A stretch of DNA of 64,000 bases, taken from assembly GCA_031285565.1 (NCBI GenBank), contig JAITVY010000058.1:1-64000 (forward strand), read 5' to 3'. The position numbers and the translations under genes were made by a program. Shown in pieces: positions 3,908-56,454 of this stretch; positions within the stretch are counted from its first letter, which is position 1, and every line of letters starts with the position of its first letter. The notes beneath the pieces are model-generated. The model was given only the letters and a program-made list of their open reading frames with translations. It made no database searches and was not told the DNA's origin. The DNA is from Tannerella sp. GTDB taxonomy: Bacteria > Bacteroidota > Bacteroidia > Bacteroidales > Tannerellaceae.

Positions 3908-3933
3908 TTAATGGAAAATTATCTGATCTCCGG

Positions 3934-5343: not shown

Positions 5344-5357
5344 AATTCTCTATATAT

Positions 5358-30300: not shown

Positions 30301-31473
30301 GCAAAACTGACTAACCGCTTTACCCGACAACATACCATCCTGCACATCCGGATAATAAGTTTCAATTGTACGGTTGGATGCATTCACATAATTAACACCA
30401 CCAAAATAAGTTCCAATCCACAACCCGTTTTCACGGTCACCTGCGAGAGAATATACGTTTTGGTCACTCATACTGTTTTTCAACAAAGGAATATCGATCC
30501 GTTTTATACTCCGGGAATCCATATTAAATAAAAACAAACCGTCATCTGCCCCTATCAAAAGATGTTTTTCATCGTATGGATAAATAGCACGTATATGTGT
30601 GATATATAAAGATCTATTTTCATTGCCATAATACGAAATTCCATCATAATGTTGCTTGTTATAAAATTTGATGCCATGCCCCCATGTCCCCAACCATAAA
30701 TTACCATTGATATCTTCATGTATACATAAAATTTCATGTCCATAGTTAGCTACCGGATGAAAAAGACCATCCACGGCATCAAATATCATTGTCAATGGAT
30801 TATACCTGAGCAATCCCATTCGGCTCCCGGCCCAGATTATTCCCGACTTATCACCATAGATAGACCATACGGCATGTTCGCCATGCTCAAATAGCTCTAT
30901 TTCCACTTTCTGCAAAGCGCCTGTTTGATGATTATACCTGAAGATGCCTTGCCGCATCGTTCCTATCCATATATTCTGATCCGGATCCTTATATAGTGTA
31001 TTAATTTCAGAGGTAACAGATATATCCTCCTGCGTTTTACTTTGTACTAAACAGAATGTTTCATGAACTACATCCATATAGTATAGACCGGCATCTGTTC
31101 CTACAAATAAATTACCATCATCTGTTTCAATAATACTTCTCACAAAATTATTCCCTAACGAAGATGTATTAAATGCCGTATTACGAAATATACGAAAACC
31201 GGTACCATCAAACCGGTTCAGGCCATCTTTAGTTCCAAACCACATATATCCCCTGGAATCCTGCAATATGCAATAAACTGCATTCTCCGACAAACCATCA
31301 TCAACCTGCAATGTTTTGAAATGGAAATTTATATTTTCGACCTGAGCTATTACCGATGAAACAGCCAGAAGAAAGACAGCTAACAATAAGTATATTTTTT
31401 TCACACGATAATAATTATTTTTTCTACTAAGGTCATATAATATAGTAGTTAGTAGATTATCTCTTTTTTTCAT
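27394..31473 (-). CDS. Hybrid two-component system sensor-regulator of PUL B
   Basis: This is a single-protein two-component system (1359 residues) that senses a glycan fragment in the periplasm and binds DNA in the cytoplasm. In order it has a signal/anchor, about 14 two-bladed-propeller repeats (for example RGYMWFGTKDGLNRFD, NLWIATEDGGINYF), a Y_Y_Y domain (near 730-800), a transmembrane helix (about 808-828), HisKA with H864 in AHEIRTP, HATPase (VEDNGIGVADEH, GTGVGLSLVKSL), a receiver with D1153 in IISDIMMPDIDG, and an AraC-type helix-turn-helix (FQRKLKGICGVTPGEYL). A GTG at 31404 would give a shorter, more usual signal peptide. It is divergent from susC of PUL B with 271 bases between, and so very probably controls that locus. 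Confidence 0.96.
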   Translation of the reverse strand: MKKRDNLLTTILYDLSRKNNYYRVKKIYLLLAVFLLAVSSVIAQVENINFHFKTLQVDDGLSENAVYCILQDSRGYMWFGTKDGLNRFDGTGFRIFRNTAFNTSSLGNNFVRSIIETDDGNLFVGTDAGLYYMDVVHETFCLVQSKTQEDISVTSEINTLYKDPDQNIWIGTMRQGIFRYNHQTGALQKVEIELFEHGEHAVWSIYGDKSGIIWAGSRMGLLRYNPLTMIFDAVDGLFHPVANYGHEILCIHEDINGNLWLGTWGHGIKFYNKQHYDGISYYGNENRSLYITHIRAIYPYDEKHLLIGADDGLFLFNMDSRSIKRIDIPLLKNSMSDQNVYSLAGDRENGLWIGTYFGGVNYVNASNRTIETYYPDVQDGMLSGKAVSQFCEDKDGNLWIATEDGGINYFNPQTKQITQPIKTTYHNTHALLWDGDNLLIGTFSRGIDIYNTRTGKLTNFRNNPTDTNSLNDDCIFSLYKTRKGDMYAGTPLGLNRYDRNTNSFVRVNEVFGFVYDIKEDDSGNLWLALYDLGVMKLDATTGEWVNYNTLLPLNNPIVNSKLTSIYIDNRKRVIFTSEGRGLFLYDYKTDGFRNISEADGLPNNVVYGVLDDSFGNLWMSCNRGIVCFNTEKPAEYKLFDKSDGLQSNQFNYKSSYKAKNGKFYFGGINGFSSFYPQNLVSLHNPAVPAVEITDIQLLDDADPKRQSDIRVLLNKKEKIRLPYNQSSFTISYVSLSYQSQSKNQYAYRLEGIDRDWKYAGNNKSVTYVGLSPGNYVFHVKASNNDGIWNEEGTVMTFEILPPFWLSIPAKIIYLFLIATSIYLLLRYYWNRNKQKQTRQLEEFKMEQEKLSVKSKLDFFTTIAHEIRTPVSLIKAPLEEVLLSGDGNEETKQNLSIIEKNSNRLNLLINQLLDFRKIDSMKYTVNPEKINLKQCIQELFERFRKTAQKNKIDFVLETIEDVELYAISDQDALTKIVGNLLTNALKYTTDKIILKLEKKNIKEYIISVEDNGIGVADEHKSLIFDPFYQVNPESGKGTGVGLSLVKSLTPLLNGRIDVSDSDSGGAVFTFTFTDLEMSIVSDNQPVEKGNETEMVNYEILKDRKASILVVDDNPDITAFIVKCLRNDYKVESALHASDAWLLLEKGNFDLIISDIMMPDIDGISFTKKIKADINFSHIPVVLLSAKTENTVKVEGLQSGAEVFIEKPFSTSFLKAQILSLLENRKTVRETFNRSPWLPYSTLVSTKSDEAFLTRLNEEIEKNISDENFSVESLTDVLSISRSNFQRKLKGICGVTPGEYLRNYRLRKACHLLIETPLRINEVAFQVGFNSASYFTKAFIKCYKVSPKEFVQSNKIGDGRN

Positions 31474-40206: not shown

Positions 40207-42219
40207 ATGAGAAAGTTATTTTTACCAGCCGTCTTGATATGCAGTTTATGCTTCCTGACGAATGCAGCAGAAAAACAATTATCGAGTAGTATATCTATTA
40301 AAGCGCCCGGGAATAAAGCAATTACCTATGCGTTGAAATCCGATAATAACGGAAACCTGACAGCTCAGGAAAAGCTGCCTTTAACAATTGAGCAGAAAAT
40401 AACCGAGACAGACGGACATACACGTATATCGGTGGCATTAACAGCACAGGAAACAGTGTATTATAACTTCGGACAGATTTATTCATTGCCGGAGATGCTG
40501 CATGACGATTGTGAGTTTTATATGCCGGGCTTCTGGTATCATCGTAATATGCGCTCGCCCAAAGAAGCGCCCTCTTTTCATACCAGCGACAGCTGGCAGG
40601 TAAGGGAAGACCGCCTGAGTACACCTCTCACCGGGGTTTATAATAATAAGACCGGGGATTATTATACGGTATTAAGAGAAGACAGGTTTGCTGATGAATG
40701 TTTGGCTCAACATACATCGGGAGAGATAATCCTCTCAGGTAAAACGTCCATTGGTTTTACCGGCTTCCGTAATATAGAAGGTAATTCTGCATTAGTGTTC
40801 GGTTTTCCTTATCATGAGGCTCCGAAGACTTATATCCGTAAGTTAACATTAATACCTCCCGCACAGGCTTTTGAGAAACTGGAAAAAGGAGAAAGGCGTC
40901 AGCTTACATGGGAAGTATGCAAAAGCAATGCAACAAACTACGCCGGCTTCGTAACGGATGTATGGAACTATTCTTTTGATAAACTCAGCCCGAAAACAGT
41001 CGATACAGGATATGACACCGGTAAAGCAAAAGAGGTGCTGTCAAATTTCTTTGTAGAAAGTTATGTGGATAAATATGATTTGAAATATTATTCAGGAGTA
41101 CATATGCGCACGGATGATTGTATGAGTACAGGTTCTGTTGAAGTTGGTTTTGTCGGCCGTGTATTATTGAATGCATTCAATGCACTGGAATATGGCGAAG
41201 CAAACAACCGTGCCAACCTGATTAAAAGCGCTAATGCGATTTTCGACAGCTATTTATTACACGGATTCACGCCGAATGGTTTCTTCCGCGAGTTTGTAGA
41301 TTATACCCACAACAACGAAACGGATATTTATAGTATTCGCCGCCAGTCTGAAGCGACATTTGCAGTTCTTAACTATCTGCAATATGAGAAATCAAAAGGC
41401 CGGAAACACCCGGAATGGGAAACGAAGACAAAACAGATCCTCGATAACTTTCTGAAAGTGCAAAAAGAAGATGGAAGTTTTCCCCGTAAATTCAAAGATA
41501 ATTTTGAGGTTGCAGATATCTCAGGCGGAAGCACCCCATCGGCAACATTGCCATTGACAATGGCTTATTCTTATTTCAAGAATAAAAACTACCTGGAAAG
41601 CGCTAAGAAAACAGCTGTATACCTGGAAAAAGAGCTCATTTCCAAATCCGATTATTTTTCGTCGACATTAGATGCTAACTGCGAAGATAAAGAATCATCG
41701 CTTTATGCTTCTACCGCACTATATTACCTCTCGTTTGTGACCAAAGGGAAAGAGCGGGAACATTATATTGATTTATGTAAAGAAGCGGCTTATTTTTGCC
41801 TGTCATGGTATTATATGTGGGACGTTCCTTTCGCACAGGGACAAATGCTGGGCGACGTAGGACTTAAATCGCGCGGCTGGGGAAACGTATCCGTAGAAAA
41901 CAATCATATTGATGTTTTCATCTTCGAATTTGCAACTATACTGGATTGGTTGGCAAAGGAACGTAATGAGCCTCGTTTCACCGGTTTTTCATCGGTAATC
42001 AAAACCTCCATGCTTCAGTTAATGCCGGTAAAAGGACACATGTTCGATATCGCCAAAACCGGCTACTATCCGGAAGTAGTACAACATACAAACTGGGATT
42101 ACGGCAAGAATGGAAAAGGTTTTTATAATGACATTTTTGCTCCGGGATGGACTGTTGCATCACTTTGGCAAATGTTATCTCCAGATCGCGTATCCGATTA
42201 TTTCAAGGCTGCGAAATAA
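40207..42219 (+). CDS. Exported alpha/alpha-barrel protein, probable unclassified glycosidase
   Basis: I do not recognise the family of this 670-residue exported protein (signal peptide ending LTNAA). Residues about 25-245 look like a beta-sandwich; about 270-665 is helix-rich with repeated SYLLHGF, AVLNYLQYE, TMAYSYFKNKNYLESAKKTAVYLEK and YASTALYYLSFVTKG, as in (alpha/alpha)6 six-hairpin glycosidases and lyases. Candidate acidic residues include those in MRTDDCMSTGSVEVGF and LDANCEDKESSLYA. It ends the PUL B operon. Its position after two GH43 genes implies a role on the same glycan, perhaps removing the next sugar, such as a uronic acid or an arabinose-type residue. Confidence 0.65.
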   Translation: MRKLFLPAVLICSLCFLTNAAEKQLSSSISIKAPGNKAITYALKSDNNGNLTAQEKLPLTIEQKITETDGHTRISVALTAQETVYYNFGQIYSLPEMLHDDCEFYMPGFWYHRNMRSPKEAPSFHTSDSWQVREDRLSTPLTGVYNNKTGDYYTVLREDRFADECLAQHTSGEIILSGKTSIGFTGFRNIEGNSALVFGFPYHEAPKTYIRKLTLIPPAQAFEKLEKGERRQLTWEVCKSNATNYAGFVTDVWNYSFDKLSPKTVDTGYDTGKAKEVLSNFFVESYVDKYDLKYYSGVHMRTDDCMSTGSVEVGFVGRVLLNAFNALEYGEANNRANLIKSANAIFDSYLLHGFTPNGFFREFVDYTHNNETDIYSIRRQSEATFAVLNYLQYEKSKGRKHPEWETKTKQILDNFLKVQKEDGSFPRKFKDNFEVADISGGSTPSATLPLTMAYSYFKNKNYLESAKKTAVYLEKELISKSDYFSSTLDANCEDKESSLYASTALYYLSFVTKGKEREHYIDLCKEAAYFCLSWYYMWDVPFAQGQMLGDVGLKSRGWGNVSVENNHIDVFIFEFATILDWLAKERNEPRFTGFSSVIKTSMLQLMPVKGHMFDIAKTGYYPEVVQHTNWDYGKNGKGFYNDIFAPGWTVASLWQMLSPDRVSDYFKAAK

Positions 42220-42356: not shown

Positions 42357-44870
42357 TTATGATATCAGTTCCGCCATTTTCTTCCCATAAGCATTTCCCG
42401 TTAATTGTTTATATTCAGTTATAAAAAGTAGATATTTACGCTTTGCTTCATCCTTTCTATTCAATTTAACCAACGAGTTTATAATGAAATACAATGCGTG
42501 TTCATTGGCCGGATCAATATTAAGAATACTTTCGCTTAACAAAACAGATATCTGGTATTTTTCACTTTTATAACTATTATCCGCTTCTAGCAAAAGAAAC
42601 GGCTCCAGTTCTTTTTCTACAGAAGCTTTAAAAGAATCAAAAAATTCATCATCTAATGATTTCAAAAACTTGCCGCGAGATACGATGTTTACAAACTCAG
42701 ACAAATCATCATCCGCATTTTTTTTGTTAATAATATCCAGGCAACGCATATAATCACAATAACATGTATCTTCTTTGAGAATCCGGTATCTGCCCTTATC
42801 ATAAACAAGGCTAAGTCCTTCCAGTTCACTGAGAATCTTTCGTAGATTATTCAATGTAACCCCTCTGGAATTTTTAACCTTATCTTCCAGTTTATCCGGC
42901 CATAACTGTTCGCTCAGGTCACGGGAAGTAATCCCGTTCTTCTGATTACTATTCAGAAGTATCAAAAGGAAAGCCTGCCTCAACTTCGCACTAAGCATAT
43001 AAGTTATATTTCTGTTCTTCCGGTCGAATACAGACAATTCGCCAAACAAATAAATGGAATTCGGTACAGAAATGTCCGACTGTGAATCAGATACTTTTAT
43101 TACCGAAATTTCAGAATCATCATTGATAACGTCCGGCATATCTACCCTACTTTTTTTTCTTCTGATACTCCTTACTATCAGAAACGCTGCGACTAATAGA
43201 AGAATGATCAACAGGCAAACGATAATATATTTAACCGGACCTTTACCGGATTTATAGTATAACAGATCATTTTGGGTTGCAGGCGGACACAGCAGGGAAT
43301 ATAATTTCATTCCGGATGCAATATCATCATTTTCAAACTCCTGTACAATACTGTACAATTCATTGGAGTGTTGATCAAAATACAGATTTGCATGTGTTGT
43401 TATTTTTTCCGAGACAATAGGCATTGAATCTCCCAGCATAAGAAAACTTCCGTCATCTATAGAAAAACGATACAACTTTAGCAATGAATGAGAAAAGTGT
43501 TCCGGATAACATAAGGCATAAAAGGTGCTATCGTCTGCAAGAACCATATTCCGTACAGGAACCATATTTTCTTTTTCCCAGGGTATTTCCCACATTTTCC
43601 GAACAACTCCGCTATCAAGGTCTACCGAATACAAGTCGTAATAATAGATTCTACCGACCGACTGATATCCTGATTCATTTCCCATCCCTCCGAACAGATA
43701 AAGTGTTTTCCCTGATGAGGAACATCCCATGGAAGAAAAATAGCGCGGTGTAATCCGGTCTCCACGTAATTCGAGGGTATCCCATTTATTCAGATCCAAT
43801 TTATACACATAAAGTTTGTCACTGTAAAGACCATTTCCAAATCCGCCGAATATAAAATAAGACCGGCTTTCCTGGTCAAAATGATTACTATGATGATGCA
43901 GTTGTATCGGTAGAACATCTGTAGAAAGTGCAGTCCATTGATAGGTATTAAGATCCAGATAAGAAATAGTTGTGCTTCCGGCAGATTCCACAGATACTTC
44001 ATAAACATAGATCCTGTTATTCTCCCTATCCAGAAAATTAGTACCCAAAAACATCTGCATCGGACATTTATTTGCATATCTTCGGGAAAGCGTTTCTTTT
44101 GTCCCGATGTTATAAATAATTATTGAATCCTCATTAAAATAATAAACATCTTCCGTATCCGGATTGAAATTTGAACCTGCTGTTTTCCCTGAAGAAAAAG
44201 AAGGTCCGAAAGCCCAGTAGTAAGCAGAGTTAATAAGCCATACCGGGTTATCAACATGTCCGGTAATTTTTTTATTGCAATCATGAACATCTTCGCCATC
44301 GCTCTCATTTAACGGAAAGAAAAAGTTTTTCCTGTTTTCATCATTAACTTTTAAATTCCGAAGTCCGTATGTAAGGATATCAATCACATGTTCACTCTTC
44401 CCGAAATGGATTACCGGCGACCATTGCTCTTCCAGATCCAGTCCTTTTGCTGTAAAACGTTCATCATTTATATAGAGTACGACTGAATCATTAATCAAAT
44501 CAAAATCAAGGCATAGCTGTAGCCAATGGCTTTCACTGATTAACATTTGTTTTACCGGCGCTTCTATCAATATATTTTTGCCTTCATGATTCAACGTAAA
44601 GACCAGTGATTCGCCGTTACCATCATACAATAAATTATATGTAGAATTGGTTTCTTCATTCATTATCCTCATGACATATCCGATGTTCCCTATAGGAGCA
44701 ATCTCGAAATCAATCTTCAAACGATTATCAAAAACCGGTTTTACATTATTAAAAACACAATACGTGGAACGGTCCTCAATCAAATAATCATTTCCTTTTA
44801 TCAGAAGTCCTTCAGAACGACATGTGACAGATATACATATATAAATCAAGACCAAACTAAACCGTAGCAT
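42357..44870 (-). CDS. Membrane-anchored Kelch/LamG sensor with SARP-like DNA-binding domain
   Basis: This is a one-component transmembrane transcription regulator. The start at 44870 gives a normal signal peptide (MLRFSLVLIYICISVTC); an upstream frame to 44984 adds only a poor leader. Counting from that 44984 frame, residues about 80-215 look like a LamG/concanavalin sandwich, and about 265-565 a Kelch-type propeller (FIFGGFGNG at 377, LYLFGGMGN at 428). Residues 585-605 are a strong membrane helix followed by RRKK. About 642-735 is an OmpR/SARP-type winged helix (FGELSVFDRKNRNI, EQLWPDK, NSRGVTLNNLRKIL), and about 740-870 is a BTAD-like tetratricopeptide module (ESILNIDPANEHALYFIINSLVKLNRKDEA). 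There is no kinase or receiver. It is divergent from the GH92 gene of PUL C and probably controls it. The sensed ligand is unknown. Confidence 0.85.
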   Translation of the reverse strand: MLRFSLVLIYICISVTCRSEGLLIKGNDYLIEDRSTYCVFNNVKPVFDNRLKIDFEIAPIGNIGYVMRIMNEETNSTYNLLYDGNGESLVFTLNHEGKNILIEAPVKQMLISESHWLQLCLDFDLINDSVVLYINDERFTAKGLDLEEQWSPVIHFGKSEHVIDILTYGLRNLKVNDENRKNFFFPLNESDGEDVHDCNKKITGHVDNPVWLINSAYYWAFGPSFSSGKTAGSNFNPDTEDVYYFNEDSIIIYNIGTKETLSRRYANKCPMQMFLGTNFLDRENNRIYVYEVSVESAGSTTISYLDLNTYQWTALSTDVLPIQLHHHSNHFDQESRSYFIFGGFGNGLYSDKLYVYKLDLNKWDTLELRGDRITPRYFSSMGCSSSGKTLYLFGGMGNESGYQSVGRIYYYDLYSVDLDSGVVRKMWEIPWEKENMVPVRNMVLADDSTFYALCYPEHFSHSLLKLYRFSIDDGSFLMLGDSMPIVSEKITTHANLYFDQHSNELYSIVQEFENDDIASGMKLYSLLCPPATQNDLLYYKSGKGPVKYIIVCLLIILLLVAAFLIVRSIRRKKSRVDMPDVINDDSEISVIKVSDSQSDISVPNSIYLFGELSVFDRKNRNITYMLSAKLRQAFLLILLNSNQKNGITSRDLSEQLWPDKLEDKVKNSRGVTLNNLRKILSELEGLSLVYDKGRYRILKEDTCYCDYMRCLDIINKKNADDDLSEFVNIVSRGKFLKSLDDEFFDSFKASVEKELEPFLLLEADNSYKSEKYQISVLLSESILNIDPANEHALYFIINSLVKLNRKDEAKRKYLLFITEYKQLTGNAYGKKMAELIS

Positions 44871-45405
44871 ATCTAAAATATTTTTTATGTTACAAATCCA
44901 AGTACATGACAAAAATTTAAAAGTCAGACCATCTATCAATAGTGCTTTCTCTCTTTTGTCCTGTTTCTTCATATTTGCATTCATAAAAAAATGACGTGGA
45001 CCTTACACGTTCGTAGAAGAGGCACTGGTATACCTGACAGATGAAACGAATAAGCCCACGCCAATACGGCATGAACATTACACATTCCACTCGTCTATCT
45101 TTTGAAAATTACCAGTTTTCTTCTACGAGAGTAATATGAATGTCATCGTTATATTATAAGTAACGCTTTACTTTTCTATTGTCTACAAAGATATAATTTT
45201 TTTTAGTCGTTAACTAAATAAAAAAAACAGAAAAACCACACTTTCATATTACTCTAAAAACCAGCCATGTTACATTTTAATACATTTTTCATCTAAGATT
45301 AATAAAAAAGAATAAAATTAACCTGAATTTAATCCTGATTTAACCCTAAAAATTAACCCTGACATATTCATTTTTGTAAAAATTTTACATTAATTCTAAA
45401 TACTC
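44871..45405. promoter_or_regulatory. Divergent control region of PUL C with inverted repeats
   Basis: This 535-bp gap separates the SARP-like regulator from the GH92 gene. It holds a long imperfect inverted repeat (44991-45146), listed separately, and a 13-bp exact inverted pair: AGAGTAATATGAA at 45128-45140 and TTCATATTACTCT at 45243-45255. A weak -7-like CATTTTTG lies at 45369-45376, before the GH92 start. These repeats are good candidates for the regulator's operators. Confidence 0.5.
44991..45146. repeat. Long imperfect inverted repeat
   Basis: The best arms are 45011-45030 (TCGTAGAAGAGGCACTGGTA) and 45110-45128, whose reverse complement is TCGTAGAAGAAAACTGGTA. Weaker pairing continues inward (GATGAAACGA with TCGTCTATC) and outward (ATGAC at 44991 with GTCAT at 45142). 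The whole 156-bp segment could fold into a cruciform or RNA hairpin. It may also be a small non-coding mobile element. Confidence 0.65.
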
Positions 45406-47706
45406 ATGATACAGAAGTTCTTTTGGGCTAGCCTTTTTTATATCGCATTTTGCTTTCAATCATTAGCATCTTCCACTTTCAGTCCTGTAGATTATGTAAA
45501 CCCTTTAGTCGGTACATTTTCGAAACATTTGCTTTCTACAGGAAATACATACCCGGCTATAGCATTACCATGGGCCATGAACTTCTGGATGCCACAAACC
45601 GGAAAAATGGGTGACGGATGGGCATATACATATGATGCTGATAAAATCCGCGGTTTCAAACAGACACATCAACCCAGTCCATGGATTAATGATTACGGAC
45701 AGTTTGCCATCATGCCAGTTACCGGTAAAGCTGTCTTTGATCAGGATAAACGTGCAAGCTGGTTTTCCCATAAGGCAGAAACAGCAAAACCTTACTATTA
45801 CAAAGTTTATCTGGCAGACCATGATGTCGTAACAGAAATAGCTCCAACGGAACGTGCTGCTATATTTCGCTTTACTTTTCCCGAAAATGACAGTTCTTTT
45901 ATTGTTGTTGATGCATTCGATAACGGCTCATACATAAAAATTATTCCTGAAGAAAATAAAATCATAGGTTACACAACAAAAAACTCAGGTGGAGTACCTG
46001 ATAATTTCCGTAACTACTTTGTAATTATATTCGATAAGAATTACACATATAAGGCATCGGTAAAAGAGAATATTATAAATGAAAATGATCTTGAATCAGA
46101 AAGCAGTCATTCCGGTGCAATAATAGGTTTCAATACCCAAAAAGGCGAAGTAGTAAATGCGCGTGTGGCATCTTCTTTTATCAGTTTTGAACAGGCAGAA
46201 CTCAATCTGAAAGAACTCGCGAATGATGATTTTGATACAATAGCCCAAAAAGGACGCCGGGAATGGAACGATGTACTGGGGCGAATACAGGTTGAAGACA
46301 ACAACCTGGACAACCTGAGAACTTTTTATTCCTGTTTATATCGTTCGGTACTATTCCCACGTAGTTTCTATGAGATTAATGCAAATGGTGAAATAATTCA
46401 TTACAGCCCCTATAATGGTCAAATAATTCCGGGATATATGTTTACCGATACGGGATTTTGGGACACTTTCCGTTCACTCTTTCCATTTTTAAATATGATG
46501 TTTCCTTCAATGAATGTAAAAATGCAGGAAGGACTTGCAAATGCATATAAGGAAAGTGGTTTTTTGCCGGAGTGGGCCAGCCCGGGACACCGGGGTTGCA
46601 TGGTCGGTAACAACTCGGCATCAGTCGTTGCCGATGCATGGCTGAAAGGTCTTCGTGATTATGACATTGAAACATTATGGGAAGCGGTTAAACATGGAGC
46701 AAACGCAGTGCATCCGACAGTAAGCTCTACCGGTAGACTTGGCTACGAATATTACAATAAGCTCGGATACGTTCCCTATGATGTAGATATCAATGAAAAC
46801 GCAGCCCGCACACTCGAATACGCCTACAACGACTGGTGTATCTACAAACTGGGACAGGCACTGGGTAAATCTAAAAAAGAAATTGATGTATATGCCAAAA
46901 GAGCTATGAACTATAAAAATCTTTTTGATCCCACACATAAACTAATGAGGGGCAGAAATGCAGACGGCACTTTTCAAGCGCCTTTCAACCCATTGAAATG
47001 GGGTGATGCTTTTACAGAAGGAAACAGCTGGCATTATACATGGTCTGTATTCCACGATCCGGCAGGTCTTATTCAGCTTATGGGAGGCCCGAAGGAGTTC
47101 AACAATATGATGGATTCAATATTTAATGTGCCACCGTTATTTGATGATAGTTACTATGGATTCATAATACACGAAATACGCGAAATGCAAATTATGAACA
47201 TGGGTAATTATGCGCATGGAAACCAGCCTATTCAACATTTCATCTATTTATATAATTATTCCGGAGAACCCTGGAAAGCCCAGTACTGGACAAGAGAGGT
47301 AATGGACAAACTATATAATGCAAATCCGGATGGTTATTGCGGAGATGAAGACAATGGGCAAACTTCGGCCTGGTATGTTCTTTCGGCTATGGGATTTTAC
47401 ACGGTATGTCCGGGTATGGATGAATATGTTATAGGGTCTCCTCTCTTCAGAAAAATGACAATGAACCTCGAAAACGGAAAACAAATCGTGATAAACGCAC
47501 CCGGCAATAATAAAGATAACAGATATATTGAATCAATGAAAATAAACGGGGTGTCCTATTCCAAAAACTATATCAAACACGAAACATTGATGAATGGTGG
47601 TGTCATAGATTTTCAGATGTCATTGTCGCCTAATAAATCAAGAGGTACTAACAAGGAAGACTTTCCTTATTCTTTTTCAGACGAAATAACCGGAAAAACA
47701 AAATAA
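45406..47706 (+). CDS. GH92 exo-alpha-mannosidase
   Basis: This is an exported calcium-dependent inverting alpha-mannosidase (766 residues; signal peptide ending SLASS). The N-terminal sandwich starts VDYVNPLVGTFS, and the (alpha/alpha)6 barrel contains the family core. Aligned by spacing with Bacteroides BT3990, the general acid is E538 (FTEGNSWHYTW), the base pair D647/D649 (GDEDNGQTSAWY), and H589-E590 match the His-Glu pair that I recall as marking alpha-1,2 specificity. The GNEP motif reads GNQP (Q607), but that is not the catalytic acid. It is first in PUL C, divergent from the SARP-like regulator, and upstream of susC. Alpha-1,2-mannosidase activity is the best prediction. Confidence 0.92.
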   Translation: MIQKFFWASLFYIAFCFQSLASSTFSPVDYVNPLVGTFSKHLLSTGNTYPAIALPWAMNFWMPQTGKMGDGWAYTYDADKIRGFKQTHQPSPWINDYGQFAIMPVTGKAVFDQDKRASWFSHKAETAKPYYYKVYLADHDVVTEIAPTERAAIFRFTFPENDSSFIVVDAFDNGSYIKIIPEENKIIGYTTKNSGGVPDNFRNYFVIIFDKNYTYKASVKENIINENDLESESSHSGAIIGFNTQKGEVVNARVASSFISFEQAELNLKELANDDFDTIAQKGRREWNDVLGRIQVEDNNLDNLRTFYSCLYRSVLFPRSFYEINANGEIIHYSPYNGQIIPGYMFTDTGFWDTFRSLFPFLNMMFPSMNVKMQEGLANAYKESGFLPEWASPGHRGCMVGNNSASVVADAWLKGLRDYDIETLWEAVKHGANAVHPTVSSTGRLGYEYYNKLGYVPYDVDINENAARTLEYAYNDWCIYKLGQALGKSKKEIDVYAKRAMNYKNLFDPTHKLMRGRNADGTFQAPFNPLKWGDAFTEGNSWHYTWSVFHDPAGLIQLMGGPKEFNNMMDSIFNVPPLFDDSYYGFIIHEIREMQIMNMGNYAHGNQPIQHFIYLYNYSGEPWKAQYWTREVMDKLYNANPDGYCGDEDNGQTSAWYVLSAMGFYTVCPGMDEYVIGSPLFRKMTMNLENGKQIVINAPGNNKDNRYIESMKINGVSYSKNYIKHETLMNGGVIDFQMSLSPNKSRGTNKEDFPYSFSDEITGKTK

Positions 47707-48066
47707 CCTACCCCACTTCAGGTAATGGGGATTAAAAACAAAACTATTATTGCTTATGAAGAAAAGAATCGTGCAATAACAACTATTCGCCGGTTTGAAA
47801 CACTTACGACCCTCTATTTTAAATCAGAACAAATGAACGTTTTAAGTAGCAAGGGCAGAAACCAAGCTTGTTTGGGTTATGCCGAGTCACGCGAAACGAC
47901 TAATTTAATTGAACGTTTTAAGAACAGTATTCGCTGCTTAGCAGCAATCGGAGATCGGCCGTAGCCAAATAGCATTCGCTGCTTAGCAGCAATTGAAAAT
48001 CGGCCATAGCCAAAACGACTATTTTAAATGAATCTATTTATTGAGAAAATAACAATTTTAACTAAC
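47707..48066. other. Gap with 45-bp tandem duplication before susC
   Basis: This 360-bp gap lies between GH92 and susC. A 79-codon open frame (47725-47964) has no credible features, and its end runs into the repeat. No TAnnTTTG element was seen, so susC may be read through from the GH92 promoter. Confidence 0.45.
47929..48018. repeat. 45-bp direct tandem repeat with internal hairpin
   Basis: Two 45-bp units (47929-47973 and 47974-48018) differ at only a few positions. Each contains GCTGCTTAGCAGC, a 5-bp stem with a 3-base loop. An ACGACTA-rich block at about 47896 recurs at about 48015, which suggests that a longer segment was duplicated. It ends about 50 bases before the susC start. Confidence 0.75.
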
Positions 48067-51000
48067 ATGAATCAGAAAATCTTATTAAAAAAGCACACAT
48101 CTGCAGGTAAATTTATTTTAGCCCTCATATGCCTTATCTGTTCGTTAGGTTTATATGCCCAGAATGAAAGAATTACCATTTCCGGAACAGTAACCGATAA
48201 TACGGGAGAAGCTCTTATTGGAGTAAATATTATTGAAAAAGGCACAACAAATGGTACATCCACAAATGTAGACGGTCAGTATATGCTATCAAACGTAGCA
48301 TCCGGCGGCACACTCGAATTCAGCTATATTGGATTCAAAACACAGGAAATAAAAGTAAACGGACGAACAAATATTCAGATTACAATGAGTGAAGATGGAG
48401 CTTTACTCGATGAAGTGGTAGTAGTCGGATATGGGGTACAGAAGAAAGTCACATTGACCGGAGCTGTTGCTGCCGTTACAAATGATCAGATCATAACGAC
48501 TAAAAACGAAAACATACAAAATATGTTGACGGGTAAATTACCCGGGGTGCGTGTGGTTCAGAAAAGTAGTGAACCCGGATCTTTCGGCAATAGTTTTGAT
48601 ATCCGTGGTATGGGTAACCCTCTTATTATTGTAGATGGTGTGCCCCGTGATAATTTTGACCGTTTTGATGCGAATGACATAGAAAGCATATCTGTTCTTA
48701 AGGATGCATCAGCTGCCATTTACGGGGTACGTGCTGCAAACGGAGTTGTACTTATCACTACAAAAAAAGGAAGCAGCGGAAGCATTAACATTGAATATTC
48801 GGGAAATGTAGGATGGCAGAATCCGAGCGGAGCACCCAAAAGTGTAAATGCAGCCGACTGGATGGTTCTGAAAAACGAACGAAGCATGCATAATGTAAAC
48901 GGAGGATTCCGTCCTTATAGCGACGAAGATATTGCAGAATATCGTAATGGTACAAAAACCAGTACTAACTGGTGGGATGAAATAATGCGTAGCGCGGCAC
49001 CACAAACACAACATTCTGTCAGTGCTACAGGTGGAAACGACAATATAAATTTCTATGTAAGTGGAGGATATTTATATCAGGAATCTTTCATGCGTAGTAA
49101 TGATCTCAATTACGAACGTTTCAACGTACGTTCCAATATATCAGCCAAAATAAGCAAACGCCTGACGATTGATCTTAATATCAGCGGAATTATGGACGAA
49201 AAGAATCAACCATGGACAAATGCGGACTGGATGATTCGTGGTATGCAACGCGCCCCGGCCATACAACCGGTATATGCAAATGATAATCCGCTTTATTATC
49301 AGTTCGGTTATATTGAAGGTGTTAATCCGAAAGCACAAACAGATGCCGACCTGACAGGATATAAAAAGCATAATAACAAATGGTTCCAGTCTTCTGCTTC
49401 TTTCACGTATGACGTTCCGTATATCGATGGTCTAAAACTAAAAGGTACATACAGTTACGATTATCAGGTAAGAGACAATGAAGAATACGAAAAAAAATAT
49501 CCTTTATATGAATATGATGCTGCTTCGAATAAATACGAAACAAAAGACCAGGGTAGTATAAATAAATTAAAAAGAGCATTCTATACCAACAATTCCACTT
49601 TATATAATCTGGCTCTCGACTATAGGAAACTATTTGCGGAAGTACATAATGTAAACGCTTTTTTCGCAGTGGAAGGCAGTTGGAAAAAAGGAGACAACTT
49701 TTTTGCATTCAGAGAATTGTCGCTTGACCTACCTTACCTTTTTGCCGGAAATACCGAAAAACAGGAAGGCAGCATGTCGACCACATACAATGATGATGAA
49801 AAAGATATGTATGAACAGGCAAATCTCGCATGGATAGGACGTCTTGGATACGACTATAAATCAAAATACATGATTGAGGGTAGCTTTCGTTATGACGGTT
49901 CTTCACTTTTCCCTTCCAATAGCCGATGGGGATTTTTCCCGTCCGTATCCGGAGGCTGGAGAATATCGGAAGAAGCTTTTTGGCAAAATTCTCCATTATC
50001 TTTTATCAACAATTTAAAGCTACGTGCCTCTTACGGAAAACTGGGAGATGATAGTGCTGCCAGATATCAGTACCTTGCCGGATTCAGTTATCCAGCGCAA
50101 AGCGGAGGCGACGCCCTTGATATAGGCACTAATCGTTTACCATCAGGATACATATTTGACGGTACCTATGTAAATGCGGTTTCCAACAAGGGTATTCCAA
50201 ATGCCGATATAACCTGGTATGTATCTAAAACATTGGATGTGGGTCTTGATCTCGAAGCATGGAATGGACTATTTGGTCTTGGCTTCGACTATTTTGAAAG
50301 AAGACGATCCGGTTTATTAGCAACAAGGGTACTAAGCCTTCCGGTTGTAGTAGGCGCCGTTTTGCCACAAGAAAATCTTGAAAGTGATCTGACACACGGA
50401 ATCGAGCTGGAATTATCACATCGTAATCAGATCAGTGATTTCAGGTATAACGTAAAAGGAATACTGACCATAACACGTATCAAGAAATTGCATGATGAAA
50501 GAGCAAGAGCCGGTAATTCCTGGGAAAACTGGATAAATAATAACGAAGACCGCTATATGAACCGCCTTCGTGGACATGCTGCGGACGGCCGTTGGTCTTC
50601 TTATGCCGACATCGCAAATAGCTCTATATATGTAGGTCGCGGCACATTACCCGGAGACTACCGTTATCTTGACTGGAATGGTGATGGACGGATAGATGAC
50701 GATGATAAGTATTATTATGCATTTGAAGATAGTAAAACTCCGTTCATGAACTTTAGTATCAATATGGGTGCCGAATGGAGAAACTTTGACTTCAATATGC
50801 TATGGCAAGGGTCTGCACTTGGTAATGTCAGATATATTGAGCAATTACGTGAGCCCATGTGGGGACATGACCAATCAAATGCATTGAAGTATTTTATGGA
50901 TCGCTGGCATCCTACCGATCCGAATGCCGACCCTTACAACCATACCACACAATGGATTAGCGGAAAATATGCCTATACGGGAACCATGCCCGACGAATGG

Positions 51001-51240
51001 TCGGAACATAATGTCTATAAATCGGATTATGTACGTCTGAAAAGTCTCGAATTGGGTTATACACTATCCGGCAATGTAATCAACAAAATCGGTATAAAGG
51101 GAGCACGGATATACGTAAATGGATATAATTTACTGACATTCAAATATGTAGAATTAGACCCGGAACATAATAGTGATAACTATGGAAATACATATCCGTT
51201 AAATCGCACATTCTCCATAGGAGCAAATATTAAATTTTAA
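48067..51240 (+). CDS. SusC/RagA-family TonB-dependent transporter (PUL C)
   Basis: This is the outer-membrane importer of the mannan-type PUL (1057 residues from ATG 48067; the frame opens at 48028). The chosen start gives MNQKILLKKHTSAGKFILALICLICSLGLYAQ, a good signal peptide. The carboxypeptidase-D-like domain (RITISGTVTDNTGEALIGVNI to SYIGFKTQEIKV), LLDEVVVVGYG, the plug (VRVVQKSSEPGSFGNSFDIRGMG, VLKDASAAIYGVRAANG) and the barrel with the terminal SIGANIKF all follow the family. It is 12 bases from susD. It probably imports manno-oligosaccharides released by a surface enzyme not encoded here, or by the unclassified lipoprotein downstream. Confidence 0.95.
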   Translation: MNQKILLKKHTSAGKFILALICLICSLGLYAQNERITISGTVTDNTGEALIGVNIIEKGTTNGTSTNVDGQYMLSNVASGGTLEFSYIGFKTQEIKVNGRTNIQITMSEDGALLDEVVVVGYGVQKKVTLTGAVAAVTNDQIITTKNENIQNMLTGKLPGVRVVQKSSEPGSFGNSFDIRGMGNPLIIVDGVPRDNFDRFDANDIESISVLKDASAAIYGVRAANGVVLITTKKGSSGSINIEYSGNVGWQNPSGAPKSVNAADWMVLKNERSMHNVNGGFRPYSDEDIAEYRNGTKTSTNWWDEIMRSAAPQTQHSVSATGGNDNINFYVSGGYLYQESFMRSNDLNYERFNVRSNISAKISKRLTIDLNISGIMDEKNQPWTNADWMIRGMQRAPAIQPVYANDNPLYYQFGYIEGVNPKAQTDADLTGYKKHNNKWFQSSASFTYDVPYIDGLKLKGTYSYDYQVRDNEEYEKKYPLYEYDAASNKYETKDQGSINKLKRAFYTNNSTLYNLALDYRKLFAEVHNVNAFFAVEGSWKKGDNFFAFRELSLDLPYLFAGNTEKQEGSMSTTYNDDEKDMYEQANLAWIGRLGYDYKSKYMIEGSFRYDGSSLFPSNSRWGFFPSVSGGWRISEEAFWQNSPLSFINNLKLRASYGKLGDDSAARYQYLAGFSYPAQSGGDALDIGTNRLPSGYIFDGTYVNAVSNKGIPNADITWYVSKTLDVGLDLEAWNGLFGLGFDYFERRRSGLLATRVLSLPVVVGAVLPQENLESDLTHGIELELSHRNQISDFRYNVKGILTITRIKKLHDERARAGNSWENWINNNEDRYMNRLRGHAADGRWSSYADIANSSIYVGRGTLPGDYRYLDWNGDGRIDDDDKYYYAFEDSKTPFMNFSINMGAEWRNFDFNMLWQGSALGNVRYIEQLREPMWGHDQSNALKYFMDRWHPTDPNADPYNHTTQWISGKYAYTGTMPDEWSEHNVYKSDYVRLKSLELGYTLSGNVINKIGIKGARIYVNGYNLLTFKYVELDPEHNSDNYGNTYPLNRTFSIGANIKF

Positions 51241-51252
51241 TTACGCATAGAT

Positions 51253-53193
51253 ATGAAAACATTCAGATATTCAATTATATGCATGTTCTTTACCCTTACA
51301 GGCATGCTTTCATGTACCGATCTAGACATCGATCCGGTGGACGTGGTACAGGATAAAGATATTTTTAGTAGTGAAAGCGGAGTAAAAAGCTATCTGGCTC
51401 GTATTTACGGGCAAATGCCGATAGAGGATTTCCGCTATACCCCACGACGTGGGTTTAACCATTTCTGGATTATTGACCCATTCCCTACCATCACGGGAGA
51501 AGCCTTGTGTGGCAACCAGAATTCGGCAGAAACAGAAAGTAAAGACGCACGCCGCTTCTTCAGGGATGCCTATAAACTACTACGTGATATTAATTATTTT
51601 ATTGAAACGCTACCTCAGTATACAGCATCCTCCAACTTTACGGATAATCAAGTAAATACATGGACAGGAGAGGCTTATCTGGTACGTGGATTCACGTATT
51701 TTGCTTTAGCCAAACGTTTTGGTGGCGTGCCCATTATTAATGAGGTACTGGAATATCCGGAAAAGTCTGTTGAAGAACTAATGCTACCCCGTTCATCTGA
51801 ACAGGATACATGGGAACAGGCTGCAGCCGATCTTGACAAAGCATATTCTTTATTACCTGAAACAAATCAACGCGGACGTGCCAACAAATATACAGCCGCA
51901 GGATTCAAATCACGTGTTATGCTATATGCAGGATCTATTGCCAAATATAATACGATTTCACTTATGGATAACAATGGGAACAGATTATGTGGTATCCCTG
52001 AAAATAAGGCAGCGGATTATTTCCGGGCAGCTTACGATGCGGCAAAATTAACAGATGGTAAATATTCCCTTTATAAATCAAATTGGGCAGCAGACGACAA
52101 ACAAGCTCAATATCAAAATTATATTAACATGTATTTTGATAATAGCAGCCCCGAAAATCTTTTTGTACGCGAATACCAATATCCTGTCTCCGTACATGGA
52201 TACGATGCCTATTGCATCCCTTATCAGTTTATGGTATCAGGCTATACATCATCCGTAAATCCGACACTTGATTTCGTTGAAATGTTTGACGGACTTCCTA
52301 AAAATGCAGACGGTACAATGAATGTATATGATGAAAACGGAAAATATCTCCTCTTCGACAAACAGATGGACTTTTTTGCAAATGCAGAACCGCGTCTCCG
52401 TGCCAATGTTATTTTCCCGGGTGATGATTTCAAAGGAAATGAAGTCGAAATATGGAGGGGTATCTATACCGGCTCTGTAAGCGGAGGTATTTCCCGCCTT
52501 CTGCCTGAAGGTACACGTGATACGTATGAAAATTCATCTGCTGCATCTGTTCTTGTTACTTCAGCTAACGATGACCAGACTCCGCATACATTGCCTAATG
52601 GGAAAAAAATGAATCCTGCCGGACGTAGCGGACATTTCTATGACAAACGCGCACATGCTCTTTCCGGATTTACCGTACGTAAATGGCTAAACCCGGATAT
52701 GCCGGCTGCCGATGTACGTGAAAATTATTCGGATCAGACATGGATTGAACTTCGTTATGCAGAAGTACTCCTCAACCGGGCAGAAGCAGCTTACGAACTA
52801 CATTTATCAGGCAAAAATGATGCCGATTATGTAACAGATGCCTACAATTGTATCAATCAGATACGTGAACGTGCAGGAGCGGATCTTTTAACAGATGCGG
52901 GTAATTTGAATGATATCGATATCATACGTACGGAACGTCGTAAAGAGTTGGCTTTCGAAAACCAGACATGGTGGGATCTCCGCCGCTGGAGGATTATGGA
53001 TAAAGAACAAAACAGCCGCACATATCGTGTACTACACTCTTTTTATGCAGAAAATGCAGGAAAATGGTTTTTTGACGATCGTTACGATGAACGCAACGGA
53101 TATTTCACATTTGATTTACGCTGGTATTATGCAGAAATCAATAGTGATTTTATGAACAGTAATTCTAATTTAATTCAAAACCCAGGTTATTAA
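51253..53193 (+). CDS. SusD/RagB-family lipoprotein (PUL C)
   Basis: This is the glycan-binding lid partner of the PUL C SusC (646 residues, longer than most SusD proteins). Lipobox TGMLSC gives Cys21. The N-terminal segment (DLDIDPVDVVQDKDIFSSESGVKSYLARIYGQMP) and the C-terminal RagB elements (WIELRYAEVLLNRAEAAYELHLSGKND, INQIRERAGADLL, ERRKELAFENQTWWDLRRWR, NSNLIQNPGY) are clear. It follows susC by 12 bases and precedes a DUF3823 gene by 19 bases, the usual SusCD-DUF3823 order in mannan and similar loci. Confidence 0.94.
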   Translation: MKTFRYSIICMFFTLTGMLSCTDLDIDPVDVVQDKDIFSSESGVKSYLARIYGQMPIEDFRYTPRRGFNHFWIIDPFPTITGEALCGNQNSAETESKDARRFFRDAYKLLRDINYFIETLPQYTASSNFTDNQVNTWTGEAYLVRGFTYFALAKRFGGVPIINEVLEYPEKSVEELMLPRSSEQDTWEQAAADLDKAYSLLPETNQRGRANKYTAAGFKSRVMLYAGSIAKYNTISLMDNNGNRLCGIPENKAADYFRAAYDAAKLTDGKYSLYKSNWAADDKQAQYQNYINMYFDNSSPENLFVREYQYPVSVHGYDAYCIPYQFMVSGYTSSVNPTLDFVEMFDGLPKNADGTMNVYDENGKYLLFDKQMDFFANAEPRLRANVIFPGDDFKGNEVEIWRGIYTGSVSGGISRLLPEGTRDTYENSSAASVLVTSANDDQTPHTLPNGKKMNPAGRSGHFYDKRAHALSGFTVRKWLNPDMPAADVRENYSDQTWIELRYAEVLLNRAEAAYELHLSGKNDADYVTDAYNCINQIRERAGADLLTDAGNLNDIDIIRTERRKELAFENQTWWDLRRWRIMDKEQNSRTYRVLHSFYAENAGKWFFDDRYDERNGYFTFDLRWYYAEINSDFMNSNSNLIQNPGY

Positions 53194-53212: not shown

Positions 53213-53944
53213 ATGAAAACGATCAGATATTTTTTATTCATATGTTTAATTCCTTTAGCTTTTACAGCTTGCGAGGTTGATAATTACGACGAACCGGCGG
53301 AAACTCTCTACGGTACGATTATCGATAAAAATACAGGTAAAGGTTTACAGGCAGACATGACTTGCGACAGAGGGAATCGTCTTAAATTGATGGAGTATTC
53401 CTGGAGTGAAAGCCCTACTCCTTACTATTTTATAGGAAATCAGGACGGAACATTCAATCATACTAAAATCTTCAAAGGACATTATGGAGTAACTCCTTTC
53501 GGGCCATTTGTTCCTGTTGAAGAAAAAGAAATCGATATAAAAGGTAAAGTTGAATTGAGCTGGGAAGTAGAACCGTTTCTTAATGTAGAATGGGTAGGCG
53601 AACCTGTCCTTAACTCAAACGGAAGTATCACCGTACAGGTAAAAGTAACACGCGGAACAAATAATCCGAATTACCAGCAGAAAGTTACGGATATCTGGCT
53701 GATGATTAACTCAAGCAGCCCTTACGTAGGAGAAGATAACCGGGATGACCGCTATACTGCCAAATTGGAAGGTGATGCAGCAAATAATGCATTAGGTCAG
53801 GTAATAACCATGACGACTCCGGGTTCATTTTCTATGGAACGGGATTATTATATCCGCGTAGGTGCGCGTATTGATACCAGTATAGAAGGTGCACGCAGAT
53901 TTAATTTCAATGAATCCAAGGAAGTTAAAGTATTAAGTAAATAA
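53213..53944 (+). CDS. DUF3823-type lipoprotein of a SusCD operon
   Basis: This is a 243-residue lipoprotein (lipobox AFTAC, Cys20) of the DUF3823 type, found almost only beside SusCD pairs and thought to be an accessory surface glycan-binding protein. The mature protein is beta-rich, with an N-terminal sandwich (ETLYGTIIDKNTGKGLQADMTC, FKGHYGVTPFGPFVPVEEKEIDIKG) and a second one (LNVEWVGEPVLNSNGSITVQVKVTRG). A terminator hairpin follows the gene at 53973-54017, so it ends the GH92-susC-susD-DUF3823 operon. Ligand binding is inferred from context. Confidence 0.85.
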   Translation: MKTIRYFLFICLIPLAFTACEVDNYDEPAETLYGTIIDKNTGKGLQADMTCDRGNRLKLMEYSWSESPTPYYFIGNQDGTFNHTKIFKGHYGVTPFGPFVPVEEKEIDIKGKVELSWEVEPFLNVEWVGEPVLNSNGSITVQVKVTRGTNNPNYQQKVTDIWLMINSSSPYVGEDNRDDRYTAKLEGDAANNALGQVITMTTPGSFSMERDYYIRVGARIDTSIEGARRFNFNESKEVKVLSK

Positions 53945-54169: not shown

Positions 54170-54237
54170 TACCAATGCAAAAACACCAAAGAAGACAGAG
54201 TGTAAACATAGAGATAATCATTAAAAGAAATAATCAC

Positions 54238-56454
54238 ATGAAAACAAACTTTATTATCATATCTATACTACTTTCCGGATATATATTATCCGGATGCGGA
54301 AATAAGAGCGAACAGCAGAATGAAATCGTAACAAAGAAAGAAAAAACAGTATTTCAGACCTCACGCGAATGGCGTCCTACCATAGACAACCGGGGAGATG
54401 TAGCGATTATCTATGGCGTAGGTGGAAATCCAAGCGATAAATCCAAACGTATGCCTTTCGAAGAGCGCGTCAGGTCGTGGCAGGAACGCGGCTATACGAC
54501 TCATTTTATGACCGGAATCGCATGGGGCTCATATCAGGATTACTTTACCGGCGAATGGGACGGCAAATGGCATCTTGATGAAGGGCAGGTGGAACAGGAA
54601 GGAGACACGATCTGGCATGGACGCATGGTTCCGTATATTGTTCCTTCCAAAAACTTCCTGGCTTATCTGAAAGAAAAACATGTCAAACGGGTTATTGACG
54701 CCGGAATAGATGCCATCTATATGGAAGAGCCTGAATTCTGGGCGCGTGCAGGCTATAGTGAAGCTTTTAAGAACGAATGGCAGGAATATTATGGCTTTCC
54801 ATGGCGTCCGCAACATGAATCACCGGAAAACACCTGGTTGTCAAACAAACTAAAATATGTTTTATATTACCGTGCCATTGAAGAGGTATTTACTTATGCC
54901 AAGGAATACGGAAAAAGTAAAGGGATGGATGTTCGTTGTTATGTTCCGACCCATTCATTGGTAAACTACTCCCAATGGAGTATCGTAAGCCCGGAGGCCA
55001 GCCTGGCATCCTTACCCTGTGTGGACGGATATATTGCACAGGTATGGACAGGCACATCAAGGGAACCCAATTACTATCAGGGAGTCTGTAAAGAACGTGT
55101 ATTTGAAACAGCCTTTCTGGAATACGGATGCATGGAATCCATGACGGCTCCGACAGGACGTAAGATGTTCTTCCTCACCGACCCTATAGAAGACTGGCCC
55201 CGTGATTGGGAAGACTACCGCCGGAATTATCAGGCAACGTTCACTGCTCAATTACTTTATCCGGGTATTGACAACTACGAGATCATGCCCTGGCCGGAAA
55301 GGATTTACGAGGGACTCTACAGCGTATCGGCCGGCAGTAGTGAAAAGGCACGTATACCACGCGATTATGCCACACAAATGCATGTAATGATCAATACGCT
55401 TAACGACATGCCTTTGTCAGACAATAAAGTGAATGGCTCACATGGTATAAGTGTTTTGATGGGTAACTCTTTAATGTTTCAACGCCTGCCTGTACACGAC
55501 GGCTATGACGATCCTCAACTCAGTAATTTTTACGGGCATGTGCTTCCGTTCCTGAAAAGAGGCGTGCCTGTCCATATCGTTCATATTGAAAATCTTCCGT
55601 ATAAAAATACTTTGGCCGACACAAAAATACTTTTGATGACTTATTCCAATATGAAACCTCTTGAAAAAGAAGCTCACGAGTATCTCGCAGACTGGGTAAA
55701 AAAAGGAGGTATACTTGTATACAACGGAAGCGATAAAGATCCTTTTCAGCATGTTTCCGAATGGTGGAACCAAAATGGAAACCAATACCCTACTGCTTCA
55801 GCTCATCTGTTTGAATTACTCGGGTTAAAGCAACATCCGGAGGAAGGAGAATACAAGGTTGGAAACGGTACGATATGTGTTATTCGCCACGATCCGAAAG
55901 AATTTGTACTAACTCCTGATTCGGAGACGAAGCTTCTTGAAAAAATTTCAGCCTTGTATGAAAAGATAGACGGAGAAAAACTCATATTCAAAAATAATTT
56001 TTATCTCCGCCGCGGACCGTATGAGCTGATTTCTGTACTGGACGAAAGTATTTATGACAACCCATTTGTTATCAACGGGCTTTTTATAGATCTTTTCGAT
56101 CCGGCACTCCCTGTATTGAAACAAAAAACAGTTATGCCCGGCAATCAGTCCCTATTATACAATATAGAAAGCATAGTCGATAAAAAGAAACCTTGTGTCC
56201 TGGCTACCGGAGCACGTATAAGTGATGAAATACATTCCGGTAACAGCTATTCTTTTATAGCAAAAAGCCCGGTTGAAACAACAAATGTGATGCGTATATC
56301 CGTACCCGGAAAGCCGAAAGAATGTACCACTTCATACAATGATAAAACTATTTCGTATCCTATTCCCGAATGGGAATGGGATGATACGAGTCATACCGTT
56401 TTAATGCATTTTGAAAATCATCCGGATGGTGTTACCGTAAAAATAAAATATTAA
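54238..56454 (+). CDS. Unclassified TIM-barrel glycosidase-like lipoprotein
   Basis: This is a 738-residue lipoprotein from ATG 54238 (lipobox ILSGC, Cys20). The promoter position rules out the in-frame ATG at 54175. The N-terminal domain looks like a (beta/alpha)8 hydrolase: GDVAIIYGVGG, GYTTHFMTGIAWGSYQDYF, DAGIDAIYMEEPEFWARAGY (acidic cluster E163, E164, E166), DVRCYVPTHSL and GIDNYEIMPWPERIY. Near 445-505 there is a Rossmann-like segment (TKILLMTYSNMKPLEKEAHEYLADWVKKGGILVY), as in the second domain of GH42-like beta-galactosidases. The C-terminal part is beta-rich. I cannot assign a GH family. It has its own promoter and inverted repeat after PUL C's terminator, so it may be co-regulated with, but not co-transcribed with, the PUL. 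Confidence 0.7.
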   Translation: MKTNFIIISILLSGYILSGCGNKSEQQNEIVTKKEKTVFQTSREWRPTIDNRGDVAIIYGVGGNPSDKSKRMPFEERVRSWQERGYTTHFMTGIAWGSYQDYFTGEWDGKWHLDEGQVEQEGDTIWHGRMVPYIVPSKNFLAYLKEKHVKRVIDAGIDAIYMEEPEFWARAGYSEAFKNEWQEYYGFPWRPQHESPENTWLSNKLKYVLYYRAIEEVFTYAKEYGKSKGMDVRCYVPTHSLVNYSQWSIVSPEASLASLPCVDGYIAQVWTGTSREPNYYQGVCKERVFETAFLEYGCMESMTAPTGRKMFFLTDPIEDWPRDWEDYRRNYQATFTAQLLYPGIDNYEIMPWPERIYEGLYSVSAGSSEKARIPRDYATQMHVMINTLNDMPLSDNKVNGSHGISVLMGNSLMFQRLPVHDGYDDPQLSNFYGHVLPFLKRGVPVHIVHIENLPYKNTLADTKILLMTYSNMKPLEKEAHEYLADWVKKGGILVYNGSDKDPFQHVSEWWNQNGNQYPTASAHLFELLGLKQHPEEGEYKVGNGTICVIRHDPKEFVLTPDSETKLLEKISALYEKIDGEKLIFKNNFYLRRGPYELISVLDESIYDNPFVINGLFIDLFDPALPVLKQKTVMPGNQSLLYNIESIVDKKKPCVLATGARISDEIHSGNSYSFIAKSPVETTNVMRISVPGKPKECTTSYNDKTISYPIPEWEWDDTSHTVLMHFENHPDGVTVKIKY

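Follow-up and report, generated by a model that had tools for sequence, protein, structure and literature searches.

Regulator gene and its predicted domains

We analysed a 64,000-nucleotide stretch of Tannerella sp. DNA (GenBank assembly GCA_031285565.1, contig JAITVY010000058.1, positions 1 to 64,000; hereafter the window) and focused on the gene at 42357..44870 on the minus strand, which encodes a predicted membrane-spanning regulator next to a polysaccharide utilization locus (PUL). The gene was delimited by its open reading frame (ORF), a Pfam Kelch match and an AlphaFold2 model, and its relatives align from about the same start. From the called start it encodes 837 amino acids, and the residue numbers below count along the 875-residue ORF. 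From the N- to the C-terminus, the protein consists of a signal peptide, a jellyroll, a Kelch propeller, one membrane helix, a winged helix and a BTAD module, all encoded on the minus strand. The jellyroll or LamG-like ectodomain (44235..44819, residues ~56-250) was placed by AlphaFold2 strands and by Laminin_G_3 in relatives, which Pfam matched in 1 of 23 members of the regulator family; the annotation of a distant named relative as LamG-like agrees with this ectodomain. The Kelch propeller (43275..44234, residues ~251-570) has a Pfam Kelch match in the protein itself, and the single transmembrane helix (43149..43235, residues ~584-612) was indicated by an AlphaFold2 helix and hydropathy, with positive charges flanking it on the C-terminal side. 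The predicted topology places the secreted N-terminal half outside and the winged helix and BTAD module in the cytoplasm. The OmpR/SARP-type winged helix (42774..43058, residues ~643-737) was assigned from the AlphaFold2 model and structural matches to AfsR and EmbR, and the BTAD-like helical module (42360..42755, residues ~744-875) from the same model and matches together with a profile bridge to Pfam BTAD proteins. A preliminary description of the window had proposed this layout, and the Pfam Kelch match, the AlphaFold2 model and hydropathy bear it out. The Pfam scan of the regulator found no HisKA, HATPase, receiver or AraC HTH domain, and no sigma or anti-sigma domain. The closest orthologue (L031, 73% identity) is split over two frames, 3081-4328 and 4025-5617, in its metagenome assembly, through either an assembly error or a broken gene.

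Modelled alone, the output domain gave an AlphaFold2 predicted local distance difference test score (pLDDT) of 91.7, and the best structural matches of the predicted domain were solved SARPs, with AfsR first and EmbR second. In this model a winged helix is followed by BTAD in one fold, as in SARPs. A Pfam search with the whole regulator as a single protein returned no BTAD and no regulatory domain, an NCBIfam search of the whole regulator gave no match, and a PDB sequence profile search of the output domain gave nothing significant (SaeR at about 0.1). Pfam matched BTAD weakly in 6 of the 23 family members (best E 0.0023), and profile A2 reached L093, L098, L100 and L101, all of them Pfam BTAD proteins (2.1e-25 to 1.1e-6), indicating homology to BTAD proteins through this bridge. 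Because the single-protein and PDB profile searches gave nothing significant, the SARP assignment rests on the fold and the profile bridge; between them, these supply the winged-helix/BTAD similarity on which the preliminary description had staked its case. A canonical actinobacterial SARP is a soluble protein with an N-terminal SARP domain. Here the output domain is C-terminal and lies behind a membrane helix, so we class the protein not with the canonical SARPs but as a membrane regulator that carries a SARP domain.

The adjacent locus and its candidate operator

The predicted target, divergent from the regulator gene, is a GH92 gene of the alpha-mannosidase family (45406..47706, Pfam 4.8e-172). 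On the same plus strand lie genes for a SusC-like TonB-dependent transporter (48028..51240, Plug and CarbopepD_reg_2), a SusD-like lipoprotein (51253..53193, SusD_RagB 3.1e-41), a DUF3823 protein (53213..53944, PF12866 2.1e-11) and a 759-residue protein without a Pfam match at 1e-5 (54175..56454). The last likely belongs to the PUL because a strong relative (1296 bits) sits in the regulator locus of genome G055; no PDB sequence relative was found for it at 0.01. Another PUL protein without a Pfam match at 1e-5 is encoded at 40207-42219.

Between the regulator gene and GH92 there are four direct repeats, which form a candidate operator (45318..45359, plus strand). They start at 45318 (TTAACCT), 45329 (TTAATCC), 45340 (TTAACCC) and 45353 (TTAACCC), and are thus TTAAYCC-like with spacings of 11, 11 and 13 bp. 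Beginning 9 bp after the last repeat, the sequence CATTTTTG (45369..45376, plus strand) agrees at 5 of 6 positions with the -7 consensus TAnnTTTG (PMC7366714). The TTAAYCC unit was read by eye from the window and from orthologues L031 and L032, beside which similar repeats were seen. The window's genome contains the error-free pair TTAAYCC-N4-TTAAYCC a single time, in the array itself; allowing one mismatch gives 6 matches, 2 of them in the array, and the reversed pattern likewise gives 6. Immediately before susC lies a tandem pair of 45-nt copies (47923-48012), each with the inverted element GCTGCTTAGCAGC, which was set aside as an operator for lack of a TTAA core.

We then compared gene neighbourhoods, for which only part of the regulator loci found in the order survey was retrieved. 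SusC, SusD, GH92, GH43 and DUF3823 were called by hidden Markov models (HMMs) seeded from window proteins, with which some members may be missed. The 28 full-length loci from the class (L109-L136) leave out the window's genus, L032, L145, L146 and short or split copies, and the 20 control regions are arbitrary stretches of the same contigs, one of them 7.4 kb long. The results showed SusC within 10 kb in 19 of the 28 loci versus 7 of 20 controls (Fisher p 0.039), GH92 in 12 versus 3 (Fisher p 0.059), and either of the two in 25 versus 9 (Fisher p 0.0013), in keeping with the conserved PUL linkage anticipated for relatives. In the window's genus, SusC was nearby in 13 of 17 full-length loci (L033-L048, L051), although loci within one genus are not independent, and in L032, from another genus of the order, it lay at 8.4 kb. 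SusC, SusD and DUF3823 occurred together, as in the window, in 12 of 61 loci.

Noncoding TTAAYCC pairs in the 61 loci were spaced mainly at 11 bp (24 pairs), 12 bp (17) and 24 bp (13), no other lag between 7 and 35 having more than 5, and the 20 controls had no pair at 11 or 12 bp. Three-unit arrays at 19 of 21 matches were present in 16 of 94 regulator-adjacent intergenic regions, versus 1 of 245 other regions of the same loci and 0 of 145 control regions, and in none of 20 shuffles; at 18 of 21 matches the counts were 20, 6 and 0. The 94 regions include the window and L032 but not L031, which provides the 21st array for the -7 box. Of the 20 arrays found at 18 of 21 matches, 17 were oriented like the downstream gene. 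In 12 of 21 arrays, TAnnTTTG with at most one mismatch started shortly past the last repeat, at 8 bp in 8 loci and at 9 bp in 4; a box lay 7-17 bp past the array in 14 of 21, whereas 2000 mononucleotide shuffles averaged 3.0 and stayed below 14 throughout. Arrays by either test were found in 38 of 61 loci (hand count), with L123, L129, L139 and L145 among the weak or non-regulator-adjacent ones. Low-complexity or repeated sequence dominated the lag counts in array-free regions, and these counts were not used.

A search without a preset unit, for three similar 7-mers before an exact -7 box, gave 16 sites scoring at least 15. Fourteen were of TTAA type and preceded SusC, GH92, GH43 and other genes; of the others, that in L046 was not of TTAA type and that in L140 was an array read on the opposite strand. 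When TTAA units and the box were scored together, 26 of 339 locus regions matched versus 1 of 145 controls, and other spacings gave 1-2 regions and other offsets 2-5. Three promoters of this kind occur in L119, two of them in front of GH92 genes and one in front of a GH43 gene. These results indicate that the repeat core in the family is TTAA plus a variable triplet; by eye, recognition helices such as GVT.N.LR pair with YCC, VYFNKLR with GCG, and VNIRKLR often with TGT.

These predicted sites resemble published SARP targets, in which direct repeats stand 11 or 22 bp apart; the distance from the 3' repeat to the -10 element is described as 8 bp, and activation as working by sigma adaptation (PMC10936776). 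According to a review, the repeats are heptamers, often separated by 4-nt spacers, and the classical units measure 11 bp (PMC10972967). Direct-repeat operators of this kind are predicted at the family level; the window itself has the 11/11/13 spacing, a 9 bp offset and a box with one mismatch.

The exact promoter pattern was present genome-wide in 12 of 31 genomes of the order with the regulator versus 64 of 362 without it (p 0.008), and the reversed control pattern in 1 of 31 and 38 of 362, respectively (hand count). Altogether, 76 of 393 genomes held the pattern and 39 the reversed control (hand count), indicating that much of the genome-wide pattern is background, because the control already occurs in that many genomes. 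The window's own genome does not hold the exact pattern, since the box there has one mismatch and sits 9 bp from the last repeat, and the pattern is absent from G076 and G166, two genomes whose relatives were found by Kelch only. Among 3 pattern sites from regulator genomes, 1 lay 3.4 kb from a previously unlisted regulator gene (L221). In L210, L211, L212, L215 and L216, where no regulator was detected, TTAACA/TTAATA units with the same geometry precede a gene, close to one for a TonB receptor, whose product of ~130 residues begins with a SusC-like domain; these units may be sites of another OmpR-type regulator.

Proposed mechanism and alternative explanations

We read the protein as a membrane-anchored SARP that activates the adjacent PUL, a reading drawn from sequence and structural models to which we give a probability of roughly 0.8. 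Computation supports the anatomy of the protein and the operator; as for DNA binding, activation, the ligand and signalling across the membrane, we infer the following. A periplasmic ligand, most likely an oligosaccharide imported by SusCD, would bind the ectodomain; at this locus it may contain mannose, as suggested by the GH92 gene in the PUL. Binding would change dimerisation or clustering across the membrane, and the SARP heads would then occupy the repeat array and recruit RNA polymerase without a phosphorelay. Comparative DNA evidence supports the adjacent PUL promoter, here divergent, as the site of action: 3-5 direct repeats, each of TTAA and a triplet and spaced at about a helical turn, stop 8-9 bp before a TAnnTTTG -7 box. 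As in AfsR and other SARPs, side-by-side protomers on the repeats would contact the sigma factor where the promoter's -35 element is poor. The one-component glycan-to-DNA switch of the preliminary description is thereby supported, with the repeat arrays in published SARP geometry as added support and a glycan ligand as the presumed signal.

Several results weigh against this reading. SusC linkage alone is modestly above controls, and the seeded HMM did not find SusC in 7 full-length loci outside the class or in L145 and L146, from the same order and with another ectodomain; PUL control is therefore probably not the family's only use. In the window, the -7 box is one base off and the last repeat spacing is 13 bp, and the box was spotted by eye before it was scored. 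No array was found by either test in 23 of 61 loci, some of which contig ends perhaps explain, and the four named loci (one Parabacteroides, three Persicobacter) had no array at the thresholds used. The geometry is also not exclusive, as shown by the genomes that hold the pattern with no detected regulator. A regulator gene was near none of 10 pattern sites from such genomes, in which several matches stand before the gene of a small CarboxypepD_reg protein that neighbours a TonB receptor, and OmpR-type response regulators could use similar sites. The geometry alone is thus no proof of a transmembrane SARP. OmpR-type winged helices can use 11-bp direct repeats, and this and the regulator-free genomes favour the arrays being sites of another OmpR/PhoB-type regulator, with the membrane protein regulating something else or acting otherwise. 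We consider this unlikely, given that arrays are enriched next to transmembrane SARP genes (16/94 versus 1/245 and 0/145), that regulator genomes hold the pattern far more often than its reversed control (12/31 versus 1/31), that the triplet seems by eye to vary with the recognition helix, and that the error-free TTAAYCC pair is unique in the window's genome.

The same protein might instead be a repressor, with the apo-protein blocking the promoter and the ligand releasing it. The predicted sites do lie within the promoter region; in 12 of 21 arrays, however, the repeats end 8-9 bp upstream of the -7 box and not over it, which is the published position of SARP activators, and the orientation of 17 of 20 arrays with the downstream gene also makes repression quite improbable. 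Control of the PUL by the window's hybrid two-component protein (27394-31473), which has a sensor propeller, kinase, receiver and AraC domains, with the membrane SARP accessory or decaying, is more doubtful still: that gene is divergent from the window's other PUL (SusC at 31745), and the SARP gene is a full-length open frame with an array beside it. A less remote alternative concerns the signal, which may come from a protein partner and not from a free glycan; the Kelch propeller and jellyroll would then read, for example, the SusC complex or some other protein of the envelope. Many solved Kelch matches of the propeller are, by their structure titles, complexes with proteins or peptides, and PUL anti-sigma factors are described as reading SusC-like porins (PMC3878776). 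We hold this possible and would not favour it, as SusC was not found nearby in 9 of the 28 in-class loci and no partner gene was seen to recur in every locus.

Known systems, significance and relatives

ToxR and CadC also carry an OmpR-type winged helix on a membrane anchor and act without a phosphorelay, with the DNA-binding part N-terminal and the sensor C-terminal; the regulator has the reversed order and an added BTAD. PUL hybrid two-component systems likewise join a large periplasmic sensor and a DNA-binding part in one PUL-linked polypeptide, but the Pfam scan of the regulator found none of the kinase, receiver and AraC domains that the window's own system has. EmbR of Mycobacterium tuberculosis presumably has no membrane or propeller part. 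It is described as having a C-terminal FHA domain, which also sets it apart from the regulator (PMC10936776). AfsR, a large SARP of Streptomyces coelicolor, shares the winged helix and BTAD fold; its protomers are reported to bind next to one another on direct repeats spaced by 11 bp, with 8 bp between the 3' repeat and the -10 element, and its SARP domain is N-terminal, followed by NOD and TPR domains (PMC10936776). The regulator differs from it by a C-terminal SARP domain behind a membrane helix and secreted sensor, a TTAA-based DNA unit, and its occurrence in Bacteroidota. SusR, described as an activator of PUL genes, is a membrane protein whose sensor is periplasmic and whose DNA-binding part is cytoplasmic (PMC3878776), an arrangement that the regulator shares by its predicted topology. 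The DNA-binding domain of SusR is described as not significantly similar to that of any other known factor, and the sites predicted for SusR are spaced by 67 or 77 bp (PMC3878776), unlike the repeats of the regulator at 11-13 bp. Membrane one-component PUL control, as in the preliminary description, thus has a precedent in SusR; the open-access papers searched yielded no SARP output for a PUL, and nothing relevant in them linked SARP, BTAD or Kelch to PULs or Bacteroidota.

PUL regulation decides which glycans Bacteroidota use, and here a SARP output, studied in actinobacterial antibiotic control, is predicted within a membrane-spanning sensor linked to PULs. If true, transmembrane SARPs would be a further glycan-to-DNA route beside SusR, hybrid two-component systems and extracytoplasmic function (ECF) sigma/anti-sigma pairs. 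The candidate operator predicted for the regulator is new here; with it, regulons can be proposed from sequence and checked by simple binding assays. Triplet differences between the repeats of paralogues would make a DNA-recognition code testable.

Relatives were found in 17 of 61 near genomes (own included) and in 31 of 393 sampled genomes of the order, from 21 of 206 genera. The output domain alone matched in 21 of 395 genomes across the phylum, 11 of them strongly (E below 1e-40), a count that includes ordinary BTAD proteins, and in 5 of 345 across the class. In the order, phylum and class surveys, scoring was limited to the top 2, 7 or 8 candidates of each genome, so paralogues are undercounted. 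Named relatives occur in Parabacteroides distasonis, annotated as a LamG-like jellyroll protein, and in Persicobacter (5 plasmid records), annotated as a hypothetical protein; with these two labels, annotation misses the regulatory role. The output domain also stands behind other ectodomains: L145 and L146 have LamG, found by Pfam as Laminin_G_3, with a different N-terminal region, L147, L049 and L142 have short ectodomains without a LamG match, and that of L099 is possibly a beta-helix, with a match below the cut-off. We lean slightly towards a Bacteroidota class of transmembrane SARPs with a conserved output and exchangeable ectodomains (jellyroll plus Kelch, short, LamG with a different N-terminal region, possibly beta-helix), in which each copy would be wired to its own operon through TTAA and a specificity triplet tracking the recognition helix, in SARP geometry on TAnnTTTG promoters.

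In L145, L146, L076-L078 and L080, the output domain follows an ectodomain made up of LamG and an unassigned N-terminal region, perhaps phosphodiesterase-like by eye, and in L077, L078 and L080 a gene for a cytochrome-c-like plus formylglycine-enzyme-like protein (by eye) adjoins the transmembrane SARP gene. In L141 (10240-11070) and L142, from genomes outside the class, a full regulator adjoins a shorter output-domain ORF (277 residues in L141, 685 in L142). The Parabacteroides distasonis record 'plasmid 23' (L176, NZ_OY725768.1) carries rpsA and surE and looks like a chromosome piece labelled as a plasmid. In the window's own genome, contig C56 (L148) holds two isolated BTAD-end remnants of ~60 residues (7422-7601 and 9961-10164, minus strand), which flank a GH43 gene, lie upstream of a GH92 gene and are apparently decayed paralogues.
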